Shown here one piece after another: positions 1,425-58,129 of a DNA stretch of 64,000 nt (the first letter of the stretch is position 1; every line of letters starts with the position of its first letter). The stretch comes from Procambarus clarkii (lineage: Eukaryota > Arthropoda > Malacostraca > Decapoda > Cambaridae): assembly GCF_040958095.1 (NCBI RefSeq), contig NC_091193.1, positions 30,086,565-30,150,564 of the forward strand. The letters are read 5' to 3'. The position numbers were made by a program, and so were the translations under genes. The notes under the pieces are model-generated. The model did no database searches. It was not told the origin of the DNA and saw only the letters and a list, made by a program, of their open reading frames with translations.

Positions 1425-1523
1425 TCTGCCAGGGGACGTTGACCAGACCACACACTAGAAGGTGAAGGGACGACGACGTTTCGGTCCGTCCTGGACCATT
1501 CTCAAGTCAATCTGCCAGGGGAC
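1425..1523 (-). mobile_element. Penelope-derived 73-bp unit with 13-bp TSD
   Basis: Bases 1438-1510 match, in reverse orientation, the central part of the Penelope-like pLTR unit also present at 15766-15967 and 57108-57714. The insert is flanked by a perfect 13-bp direct repeat, TCTGCCAGGGGAC, at 1425-1437 and 1511-1523. This shows it entered as a discrete 73-bp retroposed unit rather than as a decayed remnant. Read on the minus strand it begins TTGACTTGAGAATGG and ends GGTCTGGTCAAC. It has no coding capacity. Confidence 0.85.
1465..1505 (-). ncRNA. hammerhead-like fold in pLTR unit
   Basis: On the minus strand a 5-bp hairpin, GGTCC-AGGAC-GGACC (1483-1497), is followed directly by CGAAAC and then ACG-TCGT-CGT-C. 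This matches the stem II / GAAA / short stem III / cleavage-C half of a type I hammerhead ribozyme. Penelope-like elements are known to carry such ribozymes in their pLTRs. The upstream box is CTTGAGAATG rather than a clean CTGANGA, so activity is doubtful. The same arrangement recurs at 15797-15833, 15864-15902, 57139-57175 and 57590-57626. Confidence 0.35.
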
Positions 1524-12905: not shown

Positions 12906-15900
12906 CTCACCTGTCCCCAGTGTTGCCTCACCTGTCCCCAGTGTTGCCGCACCTGTCCCCAGTGTTGCCTCACCTGTCCCCAGTGTTTTCTCACCTGTCA
13001 CTGTTGTCTTGCCTGTCCCCAGTGTTGCCTCACCTGTCCCCAGTGTTGCCTCACCTGTCCCCAGTGTTGCCTCACCTGTCCCCAGTGTTGCCTCACCTGT
13101 CCCCAGTGTTGCCTCTCCTGTCCCCAGTGTTGCCTCACCTGTCCCCAGCGTTGCCTCACCTGTCCCCAGTGTTGTCTCACCTGTCCCCAGTGTTGTCTCA
13201 CCTGTCCCCAGTGTTGTCTCACCTGTCCCCAGTGTTGCCTCACCTGTCCCCAGTGTTGCCTCACCTGTTCCCAGTGTTGCTTCAACTGTCCCCAGTGTTG
13301 CCTCACCTGTCCCCAGTGTTGTCTCACCTGTCCCCAGTGTTGTCTCACCTGTCACTGTTGCCTCACCTGTCCCCAGTGTTGTCTCACCTGTCACTGTTGC
13401 CTCACCTGTCCCCAGTTTTGTCTCACCTGTCCCTAGTGTTGCCTCACTTGTCACTGTTGTCTCACCTGTCCCCAGTGTTGTCTCACCTGTCCCCAGTGTT
13501 GCCTCACCTGTCACTGTTGTCTTGCCTATCCCCTATGTTTCCTCACCTGTCCCCAGTGTTGTCTCACCTGTCCCCAGTGTTGCCTCACCTGTCCCCAGTG
13601 TTGTCTCACCTGTCATTGTTGTGTTGCCTGTCCCCAATGTTGCCTCACCTGTCCCCAGTGTTGTCTCACCTGTCCCCAGTGTTGCCTCACCTGTCCCCAG
13701 TGTTGTCTCACCTGTCCCTGTTGTCTTGCCTGTCCCCAGTGTTGCCTCACCTGTCCCCAGTGTTGCCTCATCTGTCCCCAGTGTTGCCTCATCTGTCCCC
13801 AGTGTTGCCTCACCTCTCCATAGTGTTGCCTCAGCTGTCCCCAGTGTTGTCTCACCTGTCCCCAGTGTTGCCTCACCTGTCCCCAGTGTTGCCTCACCTG
13901 TCCCCAGTGTTGCCTCACCTGTCCCCCGTGTTGCCTCACCTGTCCCCAGTGTTGCCTCCCCTGTCCCCAGTATTGCCTCACCTGTCACTGTTGTCTTGCC
14001 TGTCCCCAGTGTTGCCTCACCTGTCCCCAGTGTTGCCTCACCTGTCCCCAGTGTTGCCTCATCTGTCCCCAGTGTTGCCTCATCTGTCCCCAGTGTTGCC
14101 TCACCTGTCCCCAGTGTTGCCCCACCTGTCCCCAGTGTTGCCTCACCTGTCCCCAGTGTTGTCTCACCTGTCCCCAGTGTTGTCTCATCTGTCCCCAGTG
14201 TTGCCTCACCTGTCCCCAGTGTTGCCTCATCTGTCCGCAGTGTTGCCTCACCTGTCCCCAGTGTTGTCTCACCTGTCCCCAGTGTTGCCTCACCTGTCCC
14301 CAGTGTTGTCTCACCTGTCCCCAGTGTTGCCTCACCTGTCCCCAGTGTTGTCTCACCTGTCACTGTTGTCTCTCCTGTCCCCAGTGTTGCCTCACCTGTC
14401 CCCAGTGTTGTCTCACCTGTCCCCAGTGTTGCCTCACCTGTCCCCAGTGTTGCCTCACCTGTCCCCAGTGTTGCCTCACCTGTCCCCAGTGTTGCCTCCC
14501 CTGTCACTGTTGTCTTGCCTGTCCCCAGTGTTGCCTCACCTGTCACTGTTGTCTTGCCTGTCCCCAGTGTTGCCTCACCTGTCCCCAGTGTTGCCTCACC
14601 TGTCCCCAGTGTTGTCTCACCTGTCCTCAGTGTTGCCTCACCTGTCCCCAGTATTGTCTCACCTGTCCCCAGTGTTGCCTTACCTGTCCCCAGTGTTGCC
14701 TCACCTGTCCCCAGTGTTGCCTCACCTGTCCCCAGTGTTGCCTCCCCTGTCACTGTTGTTTTGCCTGTCCCCAGTGTTGCCTCACCTGTCCCCAGTGTTG
14801 TCTCACCTGTCCCCAGTGTTGTCTCACCTGTCCTCAGTGTTGCCTCACCTGTCCCTAGTGTTGTCTCACCTGTCCCCAGTGTGGCCTCACCTGTCCCCAG
14901 TGTTGCCTCACCTGTCCCCAGTGTTGCCTCCCCTGTCACTGTTGTCTTGCCTGTCCCCAGTGTTGCCTCACCTGTCCCCAGTGTTGCCTCACCTGTCCCC
15001 AGTGTTGCCTCACCTGTCCCCAGGGTTTTCTCACCTGTCACTGTTGTCTTGCCTGTCCCCAGTGTTGCCTCACCTGTCCCCAGTGTTGCCTCACCTGTCC
15101 CCAGTGTTGCCTCACCTGTCCCCAGTGTTGCCTCTCCTGTCCCCAGTGTTGTCTCACCTGTCCCCAGTGTTGCCTCACCTGTCCCCAGTGTTGCCTCACC
15201 TGTCCCCAGTGTTGTCTCACCTGTCCCCAGTGTTGTCTCACCTGTCCCCAGTGTTGTCTCACCTGTCCCCAGTGTTGTCTCACCTGTCCCCAGTGTTGTC
15301 TCACCTGTCCCCAGTGTTGCCTCACCTGTCCCCAGTGTTGTCTCACCTGTCCCCAGTGTTGCCTCACCTGTCCCCAGTGTTGTCTCACCTGTCCCCAGTG
15401 TTGCCTCACCTGTCCCCAGTGTTGTCTCACCTGTCCCCAGTGTTGTCTCACCTGTCACTGTTGCCTCACCTGTCCCCAGTGTTGCCTCACCTGTCCCCAG
15501 TGTTGTCTCACCTGTCACTGTTGCCTCACCTGTCCCCAGTGTTGTCTCACCTGTCCCCAGTGTTGTCTCACCTGTCCCCATTGTTGCCTCACCTGTCACT
15601 GTTGCCTCACCTGTCCCCAGTGTTGCCTCACCTGTCCCCAGTGTTGCCTCACCTGTCCCCAGTGTTGTCTCACTTGTCCCCAGTGTTGTCTCACCTGTCC
15701 CCAGTGTTGTCTCACCTGTCCCCAGTTTTGCCTCACCTGTCACTGTTGCCTCACCTGTCCCCAGTGTTGACCAGACCACACACTAGAAATTGAAGGGACG
15801 ACGACGTTTCGGTCCGTCCTGGACCATTCTCAAGTCGATTGTGAGTGATCATTCCACAATCGACTTGAGAATGGTCCAGGACGGACTGAAACGTCGTCGT

Positions 15901-18900
15901 CCCTTCAATTTCTAGTGTGTGGTCTGGTCAACATACTTCAGCCACGTTATTGTGACTCATCGCCTGCTGTCCCCAGTGTTGCCTCACCTGTCCCCAGTGT
16001 TGCCTCACCTGTCCCCAGTGTTGTCTCACCTGTCCCCAGTGTTGTCTCACCTGTCCCTAGTGTTGCCTCACCTGTCACTGTTGTCTCACCTGTCCCCAGT
16101 GTTGTCTCACCTGTCACTGTTGTCTCACCTGTCCCCAGTGTTGTCTCACCTGTCCCCAGTGTTGTCTCACCTGTCCCCAGTGTTGCCTCACCTGTCACTG
16201 TTGTCTTGCCTGTCCCCAGTGTTGACTCACCTGTCCCCAGTGTTGTCTCACCTGTCACTGTTGTCTTGCCTGTCCCCAGTGTTGACTCACCTGTCCCCAG
16301 TGTTGTCTCACCTGTCACTGTTGTCTCACCTGTCCCCAGTGTTGCCTCTCCTGTCCCCAGTGTTGTCTCACCTGTCCCCAGTGTTGCCTCACCTGTCCCC
16401 AGTGTTGCCTCACCTGTCCCCAGTGTTGTCTCACCTGTCCCCAGTGTTGTCTCACCTGTCCCCAGTGTTGTCTCACCTGTCCCCAGTGTTGTCTCACCTG
16501 TCCCCAGTGTTGTCTCACCTGTCCCCAGTGTTGCCTCACCTGTCCCCAGTGTTGTCTCACCTGTCCCCAGTGTTGCCTCACCTGTCCCCAGTGTTGTCTC
16601 ACCTGTCCCCAGTGTTGCGTCACCTGTCCCCAGTGTTGTCTCACCTGTCCCCAGTGTTGTCTCACCTGTCACTGTTGCCTCACCTGTCCCCAGTGTTGCC
16701 TCACCTGTCCCCAGTGTTGTCTCACCTGTCACTGTTGCCTCACCTGTCCCCAGTGTTGTCTCACCTGTCCCCAGTGTTGTCTCACCTGTCCCCATTGTTG
16801 CCTCACCTGTCACTGTTGCCTCACCTGTCCCCAGTGTTGCCTCACCTGTCCCCAGTGTTGCCTCACCTGTCCCCAGTGTTGTCTCACTTGTCCCCAGTGT
16901 TGTCTCACCTGTCCCCAGTGTTGTCTCACCTGTCCCCAGTTTTGCCTCACCTGTCACTGTTGCCTCACCTGTCCCCAGTGTTGCCTCACCTGTCCCCAGT
17001 GTTGCCTCACCTGTCCCCAGTGTTGCCTCACCTGTCCCCAGTGTTGCCTCACCTGTCCCCAGTGTTGCCTCACCTGTCCCCAGTGTTGTTTCACCTGTCT
17101 CCAGTGTTGTCTCACCTGTCCCCAGTGTTGTCTCACCTGTCCCTAGTGTTGCCTCACCTGTCACTGTTGTCTCACCTGTCCCCAGTGTTGTCTCACCTGT
17201 CACTGTTGTCTCACCTGTCCCCAGTGTTGTCTCACCTGTCCCCAGTGTTGTCTCACCTGTCCCCAGTGTTGCCTCACCTGTCACTGTTGTCTTGCCTGTC
17301 CCCAGTGTTGACTCACCTGTCCCCAGTGTTGTCTCACCTGTCACTGTTGTCTTGCCTGTCCCCAGTGTTGACTCACCTGTCCCCAGTGTTGTCTCACCTG
17401 TCACTGTTGTCTCACCTGTCCCCAGTGTTGTCTCACCTGTCCCCAGTGTTGCCTCACCTGTCACTGTTGTCTCACCTGTCCCCAGTGTTGTCTCACCTGT
17501 CCCCAGTGTTGTCTCACCTGTCCCCAGTGTTGTCTCACCTGTCCCCAGTGTTGTCTCACCTGTCCTCAGTGTGGACTCACCTGCCCCCAGTGTTGCCTCA
17601 CCTGTCCCCAGTGTTGTCTCACCTGTCCCCAGTGTTGTCTTGCCTGTCCCCAGTGTTGCCTCACCTGTCCCCAGTGTTGTCTCACCTGTCCCCAGTGTTG
17701 CCTCACCTGTCCCCAGTGTTGCCTCACCTGTCCCTAGTGTTGTCTCACCTGTCCCCAGTGTTGTCTTGCCTGTCCCCAGTGTTGCCTCACCTGTCCCCAG
17801 TGTTATCTCACCTGTCCCCAGTGTTGCCTCACCTGTCCCTAGTGTTGTCTCACCTGTCCCCAGTGTTGTCTTGCCTGTCCCCAGTGTTGCCTCACCTGTC
17901 CCCAGTGTTGCCTCACCTGTCCCCAGTGTTGTCTTGCCTGTCCCCAGTGTTGTCTCACCTGTCCCCAGTGTTGCCTCACCTGTCCCCACTGTTGCCTCAC
18001 CTGTCCCCAGTGTTGCCTCACCTGTCCCCAGTGTTGCCTCACCTGTCCCCAGTGTTGTCTTGCCTGTCCCCAGTGTTGCCTCACCTGTCCCCAGTGTTGC
18101 CTCACCTGTCACTGTTGTCTCACCTTACCTGTCACTGTTGTCTCACCTTACCAGTCACTGTTGTCTCACCTGTCCCCAGTGTTGTCTCACCTGTCCCCAG
18201 TGTTGTCTCACCTGTCCCCAGTGTTGTCTCACCTGTCCCCAGTGTTGCCTCACCTGTCACTGTTGCCTCACCTGTCCCCAGTGTTGCCTCACCTGTCCCC
18301 AGTGTTGCCTCACCTGTCCCCAGTGTTGTCTCACTTGTCCCCAGTGTTGTCTCACCTGTCCCCAGTGTTGTCTCACCTGTCCCCAGTGTTGTCTCACCTG
18401 TCCCCAGTGTTGCCTCACCTGTCACTGTTGCATCACCTGTCCCCAGTGTTGCCTCACCTGTCCCCAGTGTTGCCTCACCTGTCCCCAGTGTTGCCTCACC
18501 TGTCCCCAGTGTTGCCTCACCTGTCTCCAGTGTTGTCTCACCTGTCCCCAGTGTTGTCTCACCTGTCCCCAGTGTTGCCTCACCTGTCACTGTTGTCTCA
18601 CCTGTCCCCAGTGTTGTCTCACCTGTCACTGTTGTCTCACCTGTCCCCAGTGTTGCCTCACCTGTCCCCAGTGTTGTCTCACCTGTCCCCAGTGTTGCCT
18701 CACCTGTCACTGTTGTCTTGCCTGTCCCCAGTGTTGACTCACCTGTCCCCAGTGTTGTCTCACCTGTCACTGTTGTCTTGCCTGTCCCCTGTGTTGACTC
18801 ACCTGTCCCCAGTGTTGTCTCACCTGTCACTGGTGTGTCACCTGTCCCCAGTGTTGTCTCACCTGTCCCCAGTGTTGTCTCACCTGTCCCCAGTGTTGCC

Positions 18901-36719: not shown

Positions 36720-38835
36720 ATGGAAGATAAAATTGAAGATAATGCAGGGATGGGGACAAAACCTCAAGTGAAAGACCTTTTAGCACACATGGACCCTATG
36801 ATATATCTAGCAGGAACTGCTGACAATACCTCAGAAATGTTGTTATACCTTTCTGACATGGATCCTGCATTTCACAAGTTGCTGCTGGTCAAAAGTTTGA
36901 GAAAAGGAATGCGGGAGGAACTTAGTGCAGTTATAGAGGGACTTGTTGAAGATTACCTGAAGGAACATAAAGGAAAAATGCGATCTGAGAACCCAGTTGA
37001 TTTCTTATTGGAAAAAGTTGTATCTGAAGAAAAATTTAATGATTTTTTGAAAAATGTTAAGTTAAGCTTGGAAAGTTCAGTGCAAGACATTACTAATCAT
37101 TTTGATGATGAAATAGTGACAGGAATGTTTGCAAATTATGAAGAAACCACATACGCTAGCCCAAATAACTCAAATGAGTCTTCTTTAAATTCCTCATTAA
37201 ATCAATCTGGACTCTTATTTTTGCACCCAGCACAATATCATAACATAGCCAAATGTCTTCAAAGCAGAAAAGATAGAGAAGCTTGCAATGATTCCTTAAA
37301 TATCTTGCTAGCAGTAACACCTTGCGAGCCAGTGATGCAGGATTGTTGGTGTGACTTAAAGAAAGGGCTAAGAGAATGCCTGTTTGATGACACACCAGAA
37401 ATATTTGACAAAGCCTTGAAGGTACATTGTAAACTTCTAACATCTCAAGTACATAATGCAGTAAAAGAGGCATATTTAAATCTTTTGGGTGCTGTTGCTG
37501 GCTTTTACATGTCTAAGCGGTTTCTTTCAAAAATTCCATTAAAGGGAGAAAATATTAATTTGAACTCGTGTGCAAACATTATTAGACTCTTAAAAATCTT
37601 AATTGACTTTCAAAAAGAACTACCTCTTCTTTGGATAAGATATCCGGAAAGATTTGTTGATGATATGGTTGAAGCCACATTTAACTTATTAGGTTTAAAT
37701 CTTTCCATCAAGGATAATAAACAGATGACAGTACTGGATATGTATTCTGTAATTGACCCCCAAGCTTCATGGCTAAGAAAGTGGGTACATGGGCAGTGGG
37801 GAAGAAGCAAAACGTTTTCTGCAATGAGAAGTAACTCAATGGTACTTCTCCACTCTGTGTCATTTTGCATTAAACACTTGGAAAATGTGACAGAAATTTC
37901 ACAAGTAGACACTAGAGAGATAATTAGTTCTAGCCTTGTATCTCATTTAAGATTTGTCCATAGTATTAATGTAATCATGGCAGTCCTGGAATATTCTGAT
38001 GGAAGGAAACTCTTTCCTGTGAATGTTCCTTCCAAAGAAGAGCTGGTGACCATGCAAGGAATAATTCAAACTCTTATCAGAGCAGTTAACTGCAATATAT
38101 CTGAAATAATAAATATAGAAGTAAGTAGTCTGTTAAACAAGTTCTGTTCACATGATGAAATGAAAAGTTGGATTTTATGTGATGCTGGAGTTGTAGAGTT
38201 ACTTCTTCAAGAAGTGAGCAATTTTGATAACCTCCCACAACAGAAAAAAGATTTGAAAGGAGATTTAGAAAAAATGATTCCATCAAGTTATATTAAGGCT
38301 GTCCTTGTTATTCTGGATACCATTTTAGCAACTCACATTGGACAAAAGTACATCTTACTAGGAAGGAAGAGGAAATCCAGTTCCAAATCTGGCTTGTCTG
38401 GGATTATTAGCAGCCCAGCACATGAAGTGATGAATTTGGTTTTACACATATTGAGAAGTAAACATGCCAGCTCAGATTTAAAAAGGATTTCAATCAGTGT
38501 CTGCTGCAACTTGCTTGCCTCACCGATAGGCATGCACATGTGTGCTAAACATCCTCTCATAGAAAGTGTGATTGAACACCTCAAGAATAAAAATAAATCG
38601 GTTTCAACAGAAAAAATCTCACTTGGGATTGATCCAAGAACAAGTGAGTTACTTCATCTTAGCGTTCCACAGTCACTGCCTCTGCTGACTACACTGTTGC
38701 TGTCGTATAAAGGATTCTTTCTCTTGGAGAGTGAAGGAGTGTTACCTTTGGCACTAACACAGGTTTTGCCAGAGATGGCCAGAAAGGGCACCCTGAATGC
38801 CAAAATTCTTGCAAGTGTTTGCTGCTCACCACAAG
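36720..38835 (+). CDS. TBC1D32: TBC1D32/BROMI (broad-minded), 5' coding exon
   Basis: 705 uninterrupted codons match the amino-terminal half of protein broad-minded, a large ciliary scaffold that acts with CCRK/CDK20 in cilium assembly and Hedgehog signalling. Diagnostic stretches are LYLSDMDPAFHKLLLVKSLR (about residue 42), LWIRYPERFVDDMVEATFNL (about 302), DPQASWLRKWVHG (about 345) and DGRKLFPVNV (about 427). An Asn/Ser-rich linker lies near residues 147-164. The vertebrate protein is about 1250 residues, so the carboxyl half with the TBC-like domain is missing. The exon probably ends at a GTATGC donor (AAG|GTATGC at 38836), giving a phase-1 intron after CSPQ. Read-through would stop six codons later. 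AT-rich codon use contrasts with the GC-rich mobile elements on both sides. No later exon is recognised in the window. Confidence 0.9.
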
Positions 38836-39263
38836 GTATGCAATTATATCTATCATGAATTTGAGTTTTATCAATATTTATGAGCTGTCTCATGTGGTGG
38901 CTTCCTAAGGCAAGATTCCACTTTAATATAAACTGGAATAATGAATAGATGGGTAGAACAAAGTTTAGGCACAAACACTGCGGAGATTTGTTATCATCCC
39001 AATTAGGTCATATAATGAGCTAGGGAGGCACTGGAATTAAAATAAAGTGTTCATAAATATCGTTACATCTATCACCGACCAGCTATCTTGGGGCCAAGAT
39101 GGCTGGTCGGCAGAAACTAACATCAATCACAGCTTTAAGTTCTTTATTACAAACACTTGTGCTATGACATTTACTAGGAAACATATCATCCACCATCTAC
39201 CCTGGCCCATGTATGGAAGTCAAGTTGTATACATATTAGGAGTATGCAAAAGTTTTAGGGATG
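38836..39263 (+). other. probable BROMI intron start
   Basis: AT-rich unique-looking sequence between the putative donor and the left ITR of DIRS copy B. I see no exon or structured RNA. A short inverted repeat, ACCAGCTATCTTGG...CCAAGATGGCTGGT, lies near 39077-39106. Confidence 0.5.
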
Positions 39264-55495: not shown

Positions 55496-57107
55496 ATGGA
55501 GGAGACCCTTGTGTCCCTTCTCGCTGTGTGCGAGTTTGAGGGTTGCTCTGTCCCCTTGTCTCAGGGTGACTCTCATTGTTTATGCCTCCGTCATGCTGCC
55601 TGTTGGGTCGGTGACACATTCGACCCTGAGTCCTGCGAGCTGTGTTGCTTGTTCGTGACTCAGTTCACCCAGTCTGCTGATGATTTACTTCGGGTGCAGG
55701 CAGCTCGTGCATTGCAAGGTAGGTTTAGATTGTTGCAACGCGCTCGGGTTGTCACTTCCCCGGATGCCCCGAGGCTGCCCCGCTTTGTGTATTGGGACCC
55801 GGACTTGGGGGTGTTGGTCACTTCGGCCTTGGTTCCGTCTGCGCCCCCTTGTTCTTCCCCCTTTGGTGGTTCATTCTGTCCCCCCCTCTTCCCCCCCCCC
55901 CCCGACTTCCGGCCCCTAAGTGTCTCAGGGCTTTGGGGTCGGGGTAGGGCTTAGAGGTTTCTGAGACTCGGGCAGTTTTGGGGGTTGCCCCGTCCGGGGT
56001 GGCTACAGAGGCATTCGAGTCTGTTCCTCCGGCCAATGCTCCGGGGTCTGACCAGTGGGCCCCTTTTCTTCCGGCTCTTTTGGCTGCCCCGGCTTTTTCT
56101 TGTGAGGCCGGGGCTTTGGAGGACGGCTCAGCCCCGGGGCCTGGTGTAGAGGCTCCTGGGGCTGAGGAGGAGCGGACTTGGGGGCCTTGGGCTCCATTGG
56201 ACCGTGCATGGATGTTCCGTCCTTCTGAGCGGGGCTTACTTTTGCAAGGAGTGGGGTTTTCCTTTCCCCCCTCTGCGTACAATTGGACTTGGGTTCTGCT
56301 CCTCCCTGGGTTCGGTTCCGTGTCCCTGTGGATTCTTCGGTTCAGTCCTTCCGGAGGTTTTCGGCTACCCGCATCTCTCCGCCTGAGGTGCGGTCGACCT
56401 TTGCGGCTTACCTCCTGCGTGACCCGGAGTACGCCTCCATAATGGATCCTTCTTCGTTCAGGTTTGGATCGTCGTGTCCTTCCTGGGTGCGTTATGAGGT
56501 TTCGGGGTCATCCTGGTTTGCAGACTGCCCCTTGTTTTCACTGGATGCTTGGGACTCGTTCTGTCGGACCCCCACGTTTGAGTGGCGTGAGGCATTGACA
56601 GTGGTCCAGGTTTAGCTGGGCGGTGATTTTAAGCACCTTAATGAGTGTCTTCGCTCCTGCCTTTCTGTGGGATGTTGGTGTGGTGCAGCTCCATGTGCAG
56701 GTTCCTTCCCTGTCGGCTGCTCTTGTGGCTTTTTTGGCTTCGGTCCTGCTTTTCTTTTCCCTCCTGGAGCTATCTTCTGACTGGCTTGCGGAGGATGTTG
56801 AGGCGCTTGGGGCCGTTCCTGGGTCTGATGCTTTGTTCTCGGCTGTTCGGGCATGGTCTGCCATGTTGAAGCTTTTTGCGCCGATCCTGCGGGAGGCGTT
56901 GCTGTGGTTTTTCGATGTGCATTTCGCATGTCGTTAGGCGGTCCTTGCTTCCTCCTTGGAATTCGCTTGGGCCCTGGTTCTTAGATTGTCTTCTCCCTTT
57001 TGTCCTCTGCTTTTTGAGGCTTCTGCGGTTGAGCGTTATATTCAGACGACTTCTTCCTCTTGCCACCCTATGTCTGAGTTGTTAGTGCTCAGGGGGACCT
57101 GGGGGTT
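55496..57107 (+). pseudogene. DIRS ORF1 (gag-like), copy E
   Basis: The amino end 55496-55954 encodes CEFEGCSVPLSQGDSHCLCL, then RHAACWV and SCELCC, a Cys/His-rich zinc-binding module, then FTQSADDLLRVQAARALQGR (helical) and a Pro-rich linker. A C13 run at about 55895 shifts the frame. Later conserved blocks are FRRFSATRISPPEVRSTFAA and LLRDPEYASIMDPSSFRFG. A stop lies at 56613. The frame is finally split at 57107 by the Penelope insertion. Its role is inferred as the DIRS ORF1 nucleic-acid-binding or capsid-like protein. Confidence 0.75.
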
Positions 57108-57725
57108 GTTGACCAGACCACACACTAGAAGTTGAAGGGACGACGACGTTTCGGTCCGTCCTGGACCATTCTCAAGTCGATTGTGATGAGGAGGTAGGGA
57201 CAGGCAATAAATAGGCAAGAGAGAGCTGAGGAGGAAAGTAAGGTGTAGGGGATAGTAGTAAAAATGAGAACTGCAGAAGGCCTATTGGCCCATAAGGCGG
57301 GCATGTTCAGGGAAAGGAGATCCAGAAGTGTTGAACTGGAGAAAGTGAGATAAAGAAAGAGGGAGAACTTGCTCAGCAAGACAGTCTTTGAGAAACCTGA
57401 GCTGGTTCTTTCGACGCTTGGCGGCAAGAAGGGAAGATTCAAGGGCGCGAAAAGGCCGTTTGAAGGAAGGTAGAGCATCGAAGAAATTAAACAGAGTAAG
57501 ACGCGTACGTGTGGTATCCATATGCAAGCGATGAGTCACAATAACGTGGCTGAAGTATGTTGACCAGACCACACACTAGAAGTTGAAGGGACGACGACGT
57601 TTCAGTCCGTCCTGGACCATTCTCAAGTCGAACCGAAACGTCGTCGTCCCTTCAACTTCTAGTGTGTGGTCTGGTCAACATACTTCAGCCACGTTATTGT
57701 GACTCATCGCCTGCACCTGGGGGTT
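57097..57725 (-). mobile_element. Penelope-like element with 11-bp TSD
   Basis: The insert 57108-57714 is flanked by ACCTGGGGGTT at 57097-57107 and 57715-57725, in DIRS ORF1. On the minus strand it has a palindromic pair of pLTR pieces (57714-57547), a coding segment (57521-57282), a short 3' region and a terminal pLTR (about 57185-57108). The arrangement of inverted plus direct pLTRs is characteristic of Penelope-like elements. Most of the RT and the GIY-YIG endonuclease are absent, so it is non-autonomous. Confidence 0.85.
57282..57521 (-). pseudogene. Penelope-like ORF, amino-terminal remnant
   Basis: 79 codons read LFNFFDALPSFKRPFRALES, then SLLAAKRRKNQLRFLKDCLA and EQVLPLSLS. They resemble the region before the RT domain in Penelope-like proteins, with basic Lys/Arg helices followed by FLxxCLxxxVLP. 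A stop follows at LMGQ. The domain assignment rests on the pattern and on the flanking pLTRs. Confidence 0.55.
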
Positions 57726-58129
57726 CCTTCCCGGCAGGGTCGTACCAGGGCTCGCGGTTCCGTTCGTCAGGGTAGGCCAAAGGTGTCGGGTTTGGTGCTG
57801 GTGCCACCTGCGGTCCCGCCTGTGCCTGGTCGGCGCGGTGTTCGCTCTGCGTGCAGGTCGGGTTCTCATAAGGGGCAGCGGCCCTTTCGCTGTTCGCCCC
57901 ATTCATGGGGAGATGGGGGGAGGCTTTCTCTGTTCGCTCATGCTTGATCTCACGATTTGTGGGCTTTTCGGGTCGTTTCTCGCGGCCTGCGGTGGCGTTG
58001 GGTGGCTCCTCTTCCTATGGGGGGTTCAGGGCTGAAGGGGCAGGTTTCCTCTCCTTCGCTCCGTCGGGTCATCTTGGAGTGGGTGCGCTTGGGCGTGGTC
58101 GAAACGACGCCGTCCCTCAGGTGGGTTTC
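57726..58129 (+). pseudogene. DIRS ORF1 end / linker to RT, copy E
   Basis: Resumes the DIRS sequence after the Penelope insertion (TTCCCGGCAGGGTCGTACCA, matching copy A at about 32738). It encodes a basic Arg/Gly/Pro-rich segment in overlapping frames. The boundary between ORF1 and the RT polyprotein cannot be fixed because frames are broken. Confidence 0.55.

Follow-up and report, generated by a model that had tools for sequence, protein, structure and literature searches.

A 73-bp insertion in Procambarus clarkii as a probable short, single-ended product of a Penelope-like element

In a 64-kb stretch of Procambarus clarkii DNA (64,000 nucleotides, hereafter the window), a 73-bp insert (insert A; positions 1438 to 1510, minus strand) lies between two exact copies of a 13-bp sequence, TCTGCCAGGGGAC (1425 to 1437 and 1511 to 1523); it is confirmed here as a real insertion, and blastn to other copies and comparison of their ends identify it as a single no-tail unit of a Penelope pLTR. 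We consider it probable that A is a short, single-ended insertion of a Penelope-like element (PLE), the cDNA of which would have been begun at an internal, no-tail site of a longer RNA, with the 13-bp duplication arising from repair. The family of A is best read as a PLE in which most of the sampled insertions are very small and their ends appear to record its start sites, and the 73-bp insert is explicable without a new ribozyme element. PLE integration is poorly known; a purified lizard PLE enzyme was presented as the first to be active in vitro (PMC11167929). The tens of thousands of short insertions described here, with readable ends and duplications, form a natural record of PLE integration, which agrees with internal starting at two sites, yields a sharp candidate for the RNA 5′ end and reveals a rule for foldback copies that is open to biochemical confirmation or rejection.

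Insert A is bounded by a target-site duplication

The perfect 13-bp duplication proposed by a sequence-only reading of the window was upheld. TCTGCCAGGGGAC occurs exactly at the two places given above and nowhere else in the window. The genome assembly (4.03 Gb, 2308 contigs) was searched with an empty-site query in which the flanks were joined around one target copy; 18 rows were returned, of which four were the two filled copies themselves and 14 were other places at 78–85% identity, the joint being crossed by 13 of the 14 alignments. The five of these places that were fetched (79–81% identical) all carried one target copy and lacked the insert, and all five read CTCTG(C/T)CTGGG..CACC/CGCC without interruption; the reading was taken from the letters, and MAFFT aligns the right flanks of these sequences against the start of the insert. 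The five are diverged paralogues, not alleles, and with a single target copy in each, a tandem duplication that pre-existed in insert-free relatives was found in none of them. The 99-bp block formed by A and its duplications is present, identical, at C44:30734488, 646 kb away, within a 2.9-kb duplicate of the A locus (98.5% identical); since both copies sit in this segmental duplication, A and its twin represent one insertion event.

By blastn, insert A matched five other stretches of the window (95.8–98.6% identity over 51–71 bp), which lie within two further insertions of the same family, B and C, and have the same first base as A, at GTTGACC. Insertion B (15766 to 15967) is a foldback, with a no-tail GTTGACC end at the left and an inverted arm with a tail ending GCCTGC at the right; its apparent duplication, TGTCCCCAGT, is ambiguous and located in satellite. 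Insertion C (57108 to 57714) consists of a unit, about 380 bp of body, a second unit and an inverted arm with a tail, between two copies of the target-site duplication ACCTGGGGGTT (57097 to 57107 and 57715 to 57725). B and C both start with GTTGACC and end with an inverted arm and a 35-bp extension finishing GCCTGC. On its minus strand, the body of C translates as MVQDG...RRRPFNF*CVVWSTYFSHVIVTHRLHMDTT..., a frame interrupted by one TAG only, and the ORF starts there. Since this open frame is on the minus strand, we take that strand as the sense strand, with the unit at the ORF start; reverse transcription would then have started at the 1438 end, and 1510 would lie closest to the RNA 5′ end. 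Within C (57557 to 57285, minus strand), the frame from the ATG of stem II (see below) passes through the tail into the ORF, the single TAG lying between. The best miRNA-family match of the copy C hairpin (E 0.00025) was below the gathering score; these weak matches are ascribed to the inverted repeat of the hairpin.

Most sampled insertions are single units or small foldbacks

The genome holds 15,272 exact 35-mers beginning GTTGACC, 42,331 exact 21-mers of the inner unit and at least 2,734 exact 37-mers running on into the body, a lower bound in that an exact 16-base extension was required. From contig C1 we sampled 60 loci, corresponding to 66 of the 100 places among the 35-mer matches listed (34 were left out), and near-identical loci were collapsed to give 53 distinct loci. 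Of these, 29 are foldbacks, in which the tail lies either on the side of the unit that was read (18) or on the opposite side (11), and 24 are single units, 14 of them with a tail and 10 without. For a duplication to be called, its score had to reach 8 and to exceed that of every one of 20 shuffles; at the GTTGACC end, no more than small shifts (−4 to +3) were permitted. Clear duplications, of 8–17 bp (median 12), were found at 33 of the 53 loci (22 of the 29 foldbacks, eight of the 14 tail singles and three of the 10 no-tail singles, hence 11 of the 24 single units), and 20 loci lacked one. At 52 of the 53 loci the insertion is a short unit or a foldback; A, the size of which was earlier read as far below that of known Penelope copies, is no exception here.

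The C1 sample is no test of how often the GTTGACC end is lost, because it was picked by a 35-mer beginning GTTGACC. Six insertions were present in an unselected random sample of 200 kb (with N excluded, about 189 kb). Four were foldbacks, of which one is old and another is missing about 29 nt on the left, and two were singles: L050, with 78 bp of unit and nine extra bases before GTTGACC, and L066, with about 65 bp of unit, 12 of filler and the duplication AGTCTA(C/T)CTTT. Among the nine unselected insertions, that is, these six and the three in the window, three depart from an intact GTTGACC end or cannot be read with certainty: L056, without about 29 nt of it, L050, with its nine extra bases, and L061, which is too old.

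A pattern taken from A's own right end, CCGTCC...AAGTCAATCT, occurs at 12 places in the genome. In this list, chosen by that end, A and its twin are joined by three inserts with duplications of their own (L004, 73 bp, TCTACAGCCTT; L038, 73 bp, TCTGGCTCTT; L005, 76 bp, ACTACTTTA), the other seven places being foldbacks, tail forms or filler-bearing copies. A-like insertions also occur in the sample that was not chosen by right end (L103, 71 bp; L115, 83 bp; L101, 106 bp with filler). The unit was thus retroposed alone, as had been proposed: the insertions are independent, their two ends being almost identical and their target duplications distinct.

Direct repeats of the unit were found, among the loci read, only at C66, at L128 and in copy C. 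The first (L006/L046, C66:23468903-23469138) is a 99-bp tandem array holding three unit copies, each with about 28 bp of flank, so the unit can seed a tandem repeat; L128 (C1:32837371 onward) is a short-period tandem array from the inner unit part ACCACACACTAGAAGGTGAAGGGACG.

PLEs are described as having such units, tails, inverted arms and variable duplications (PMC3846280, PMC8969392), which points to PLE machinery. The pLTR of PLEs carries an optional tail of about 30–40 bp and may be accompanied by an inverted pLTR; here the tail is 35 bp, inverted arms occur at 29 of the 53 loci, and the duplications vary, that of A, with 13 bp, falling within the range sampled. Membership is assigned on anatomy, since no complete RT/GIY-YIG ORF of A's family was found beside the unit in searches at C, at L134 and in the random sample. 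The 91-aa frame of copy C had no Pfam match; the 2-kb extension of L134, one body-bearing sampled locus, contained other ORFs and no recognised PLE (no Pfam scan was made of it); and GIY-YIG was found in none of ten scanned ORFs of the random sample. No match was obtained when viral and prokaryotic collections were scanned with exact patterns, or by blastn to phages, and a text search of papers for the letters of the unit found none.

Two outer ends and one inner boundary

Two alternative outer ends, GTTGACC and GCAGGCGATGAG...GTAT, lie 35 nt apart, the no-tail side beginning GTTGACC and the tail side GCAGGC. Of the ends that could be read, 16 of 22 on the no-tail side and 32 of 39 on the tail side have a T at −1 of the target (15 unreadable no-tail entries and one tail entry were dropped), which agrees with reports of AT-rich cutting by PLEs.

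For the inner side, the 45 arms carrying GACCATTCTCAAG in the 53 loci were followed onward against the body-bearing sequence of copy C: the match persisted in 33 arms at unit position 73, in 22 at 76, in 10 at 79, in one at 80 and in none beyond. L077, the one distinct sampled locus that enters the body, in a variant form, diverges at position 74 and was counted as ending at 73. The right end clusters under a hard boundary at unit position 79–80, and purely random truncation of a long element was rejected on the absence of any match past 80 among the 45 arms. Below the boundary, the right end scatters between about 69 and 80 in most copies, and three C1 singles (L094, L096 and L127), none with a clear duplication, end at 49–51, adjoining stem II, where the enzyme perhaps has a stalling point. 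The sequence-only reading had set as its test whether copies share the same two ends, with independent duplications; many copies do have duplications of their own, but the right end is not one fixed base. Insert A halts at unit position 71 and then adds AA, its right end being CAAGTC-AA as against CAAGTC-GA in the body-bearing form, which is a point against the explanation that we favour. Judged from these DNA ends, the boundary at 79–80 would be the RNA 5′ end, and TCATCACAATC, located there, resembles an initiator motif.

In a lizard Penelope element, reverse transcription is initiated within the RNA, at two sites close together that give 'tail' and 'no-tail' ends (Frangieh et al. 2024; PMC11167929). 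The two ends described here, 35 nt apart, fit the enzyme of this element and suggest that the element ends correspond to internal start sites. In the mechanism that we propose for A, the PLE protein would nick the target, and reverse transcription would begin inside the PLE RNA at the no-tail start site (the GTTGACC end), near the pLTR–ORF junction. The cDNA would run some 71–80 nt towards the RNA 5′ end, A reaching this end or coming within some 8 nt of it, and would be joined to the opposite side of the break, the 13-bp duplication being left when the staggered cut was repaired. Tail units would be started at the alternative site, 35 nt further 3′; when both target strands were primed, a foldback would result, with two cDNAs head to head, one with a tail end and one with a no-tail end. 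The lizard enzyme starts within a longer RNA and depends on ORF sequence 3′ of the point of initiation (PMC11167929), so an insert of 73 bp is no sign of an RNA of 73 nt; the tiny RNA template envisaged earlier can be dispensed with, and a longer RNA would suffice for A.

An unlikely alternative is that the template was a discrete short RNA, a non-autonomous transcript of 80 or 115 nt that starts in a pLTR, ends in the same pLTR and is copied from its 3′ end. The sharpness of both outer ends and of the inner boundary would agree with such an RNA, as would the excess of units (42,331 exact 21-mers) over copies that run exactly into the body (2,734). However, internal starting from a longer RNA, as shown for a PLE, gives the same ends without a second RNA, and units of this kind are without the ORF sequence 3′ of the start site that the lizard enzyme needs (PMC11167929).

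Foldbacks join one tail end and one no-tail end

Both outer ends could be evaluated in 26 of the 29 foldbacks (L074, L086 and L093 being the exceptions), and all 26 had one tail and one no-tail end; with a free choice at each end, and assuming independent events, the odds of such a result would be no better than about one in 2^26. The foldback centres differ in all 16 readable cases (13 of the 29 have no simple centre), which favours a fresh joining event each time over the copying of one foldback element. The pairing rule is new here: neither it nor the abundance of short units was found in the literature searched, which is no proof of absence. Strict pairing might arise from an asymmetric dimer or from the use of both sites on a single RNA. 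A broader proposal, which we advance tentatively and at somewhat less than even confidence, is that this PLE inserts mostly as by-products of 75–200 bp, each target strand being primed on a different start site, by an asymmetric enzyme dimer or from one RNA read at both sites, and copied to the RNA 5′ end; A would be the one-sided form.

The foldbacks also offer a different template for A, the RNA of a foldback copy, with copying halted at the hairpin loop. Foldbacks are the commonest form, CAAGTCAATC, at A's right end, is also found at many foldback centres, and a copied foldback would explain the constant pairing of tail and no-tail ends. Yet the 14 tail singles would require a second, oppositely directed transcript, the readable centres are all different, and there is no known reason for the enzyme to halt at the loop; we regard this origin as decidedly unlikely.

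The hammerhead-like stretch of insert A

A degenerate hammerhead-like stretch lies at 1475 to 1506 (minus strand) and is composed of CTTGAGA (an altered core), stem II GGTCC..GGACC, GAAAC and GTC. On the sense strand it reads CTTGAGA-ATGGTCCAGGACGGACC-GAAAC-GTC, with an ATG at 1499-1497, at the start of stem II, and the GUC ending at +25, an arrangement shared with the lizard PLE, in which the hammerhead cut site is 26 bp after the start codon (PMC11167929). The predicted cut in A falls between 1475 and 1474, in the middle of the insert, so the ends of A are not ribozyme ends. A minimal type I hammerhead has the core CUGANGA ... GAAA and an NUH cleavage site; A's unit differs from CUGANGA at core positions 5 and 6 and, as far as its sequence goes, would not be classed as a hammerhead ribozyme. 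CUGANGA was found in none of the 140 examined matches with stem II and GAAA (some loci being counted more than once), and CTTGAGA was present in at least 109 of them, as counted over the 15 commonest forms. A canonical CUGANGA core with the surrounding stem intact occurs at eight exact genomic places, at the same position in the unit. Nothing in the window reached the gathering score of an Rfam family, and even at E ≤ 10 no hammerhead was returned for 1300–1700 or 57050–57760; of the 'hammerhead-like core' described earlier, the position stands and Rfam recognition is lacking.

The small size, the hammerhead-like layout and the many single units of similar size had suggested a minimal retrozyme, that is, a 73-nt self-cleaved or circular hammerhead RNA retroposed as such. 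This is very improbable. The ends of A lie off the predicted cut; the core is altered, to judge by its sequence, in A and in all 140 matches examined, with only the eight canonical places just noted and no Rfam hammerhead; tandem units bounded by cut sites are not what is seen, 29 of the 53 sampled distinct loci being inverted foldbacks; and insertion by the lizard PLE in vitro was unaffected by hammerhead mutants (PMC11167929). Insert A is very probably neither a self-cleaved ribozyme segment nor a retrozyme: it fails the ribozyme tests that could be made.

Comparison with known elements

Like Poseidon of Anolis carolinensis and canonical GIY-YIG PLEs, A's family has pLTR units with an optional tail of about 35 bp, an ATG at stem II of the hammerhead-like motif and a T- or AT-rich target side (PMC11167929). 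Unlike in Poseidon, the hammerhead core residues are changed here, single units and small foldbacks are nearly all of the sampled copies, and the foldbacks that can be evaluated all combine a tail end with a no-tail end, whereas the two strands are reported not to differ in start site with the lizard PLE in vitro (PMC11167929). Penelope of Adineta vaga is similar in its inverted pLTR, in the tail optionally present at one inverted pLTR, in its solo pLTRs and in its duplications, of 8–9 bp; it differs in its low copy number and in several solo pLTRs without duplications (PMC3846280). Such rotifer solo pLTRs are ascribed to recombination or deletion (PMC3846280), but the chance that A is not an insertion, and reflects a chance repeat, a tandem duplication or the deletion of a larger copy, is negligible, given the perfect 13-bp duplication and the single-copy empty sites in all five fetched paralogues, by which a chance or tandem repeat was rejected.

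Metazoan non-LTR retrozymes are, like A's family, small, abundant and non-coding, with a hammerhead-related layout; they differ in that here there is no intact hammerhead core, the units are inverted and not tandem, and the unit measures 73–115 bp against about 150–350 (PMC7229834, PMC7761336). Dispersed minimal type I hammerheads of metazoans (Cervera and de la Pena 2014; Lunse et al. 2017; both via PMC7761336) likewise form thousands of short motifs, some of them in PLE pLTRs; the present data go beyond these in showing, for one family, dispersal with target duplications.

Other features of the window

Insert A is adjoined by a 54-bp inverted repeat, 91% complementary (1583 to 1867), and telomere-like CCTAA repeats (about 1640–1680) lie near the inner edge of its left arm. 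Repeats of the CACCTGTCCCCAGTGTTGTCT type occur where insertion B lies, and an extensive region resembling satellite DNA, from about 11000 to 32500, contains long open frames on each strand. Between B and C, a 712-aa open frame (36720 to 38858) matches the Broad-minded (BROMI) Pfam families, with no introns in the stretch, and is either a very large exon or a retrocopy.
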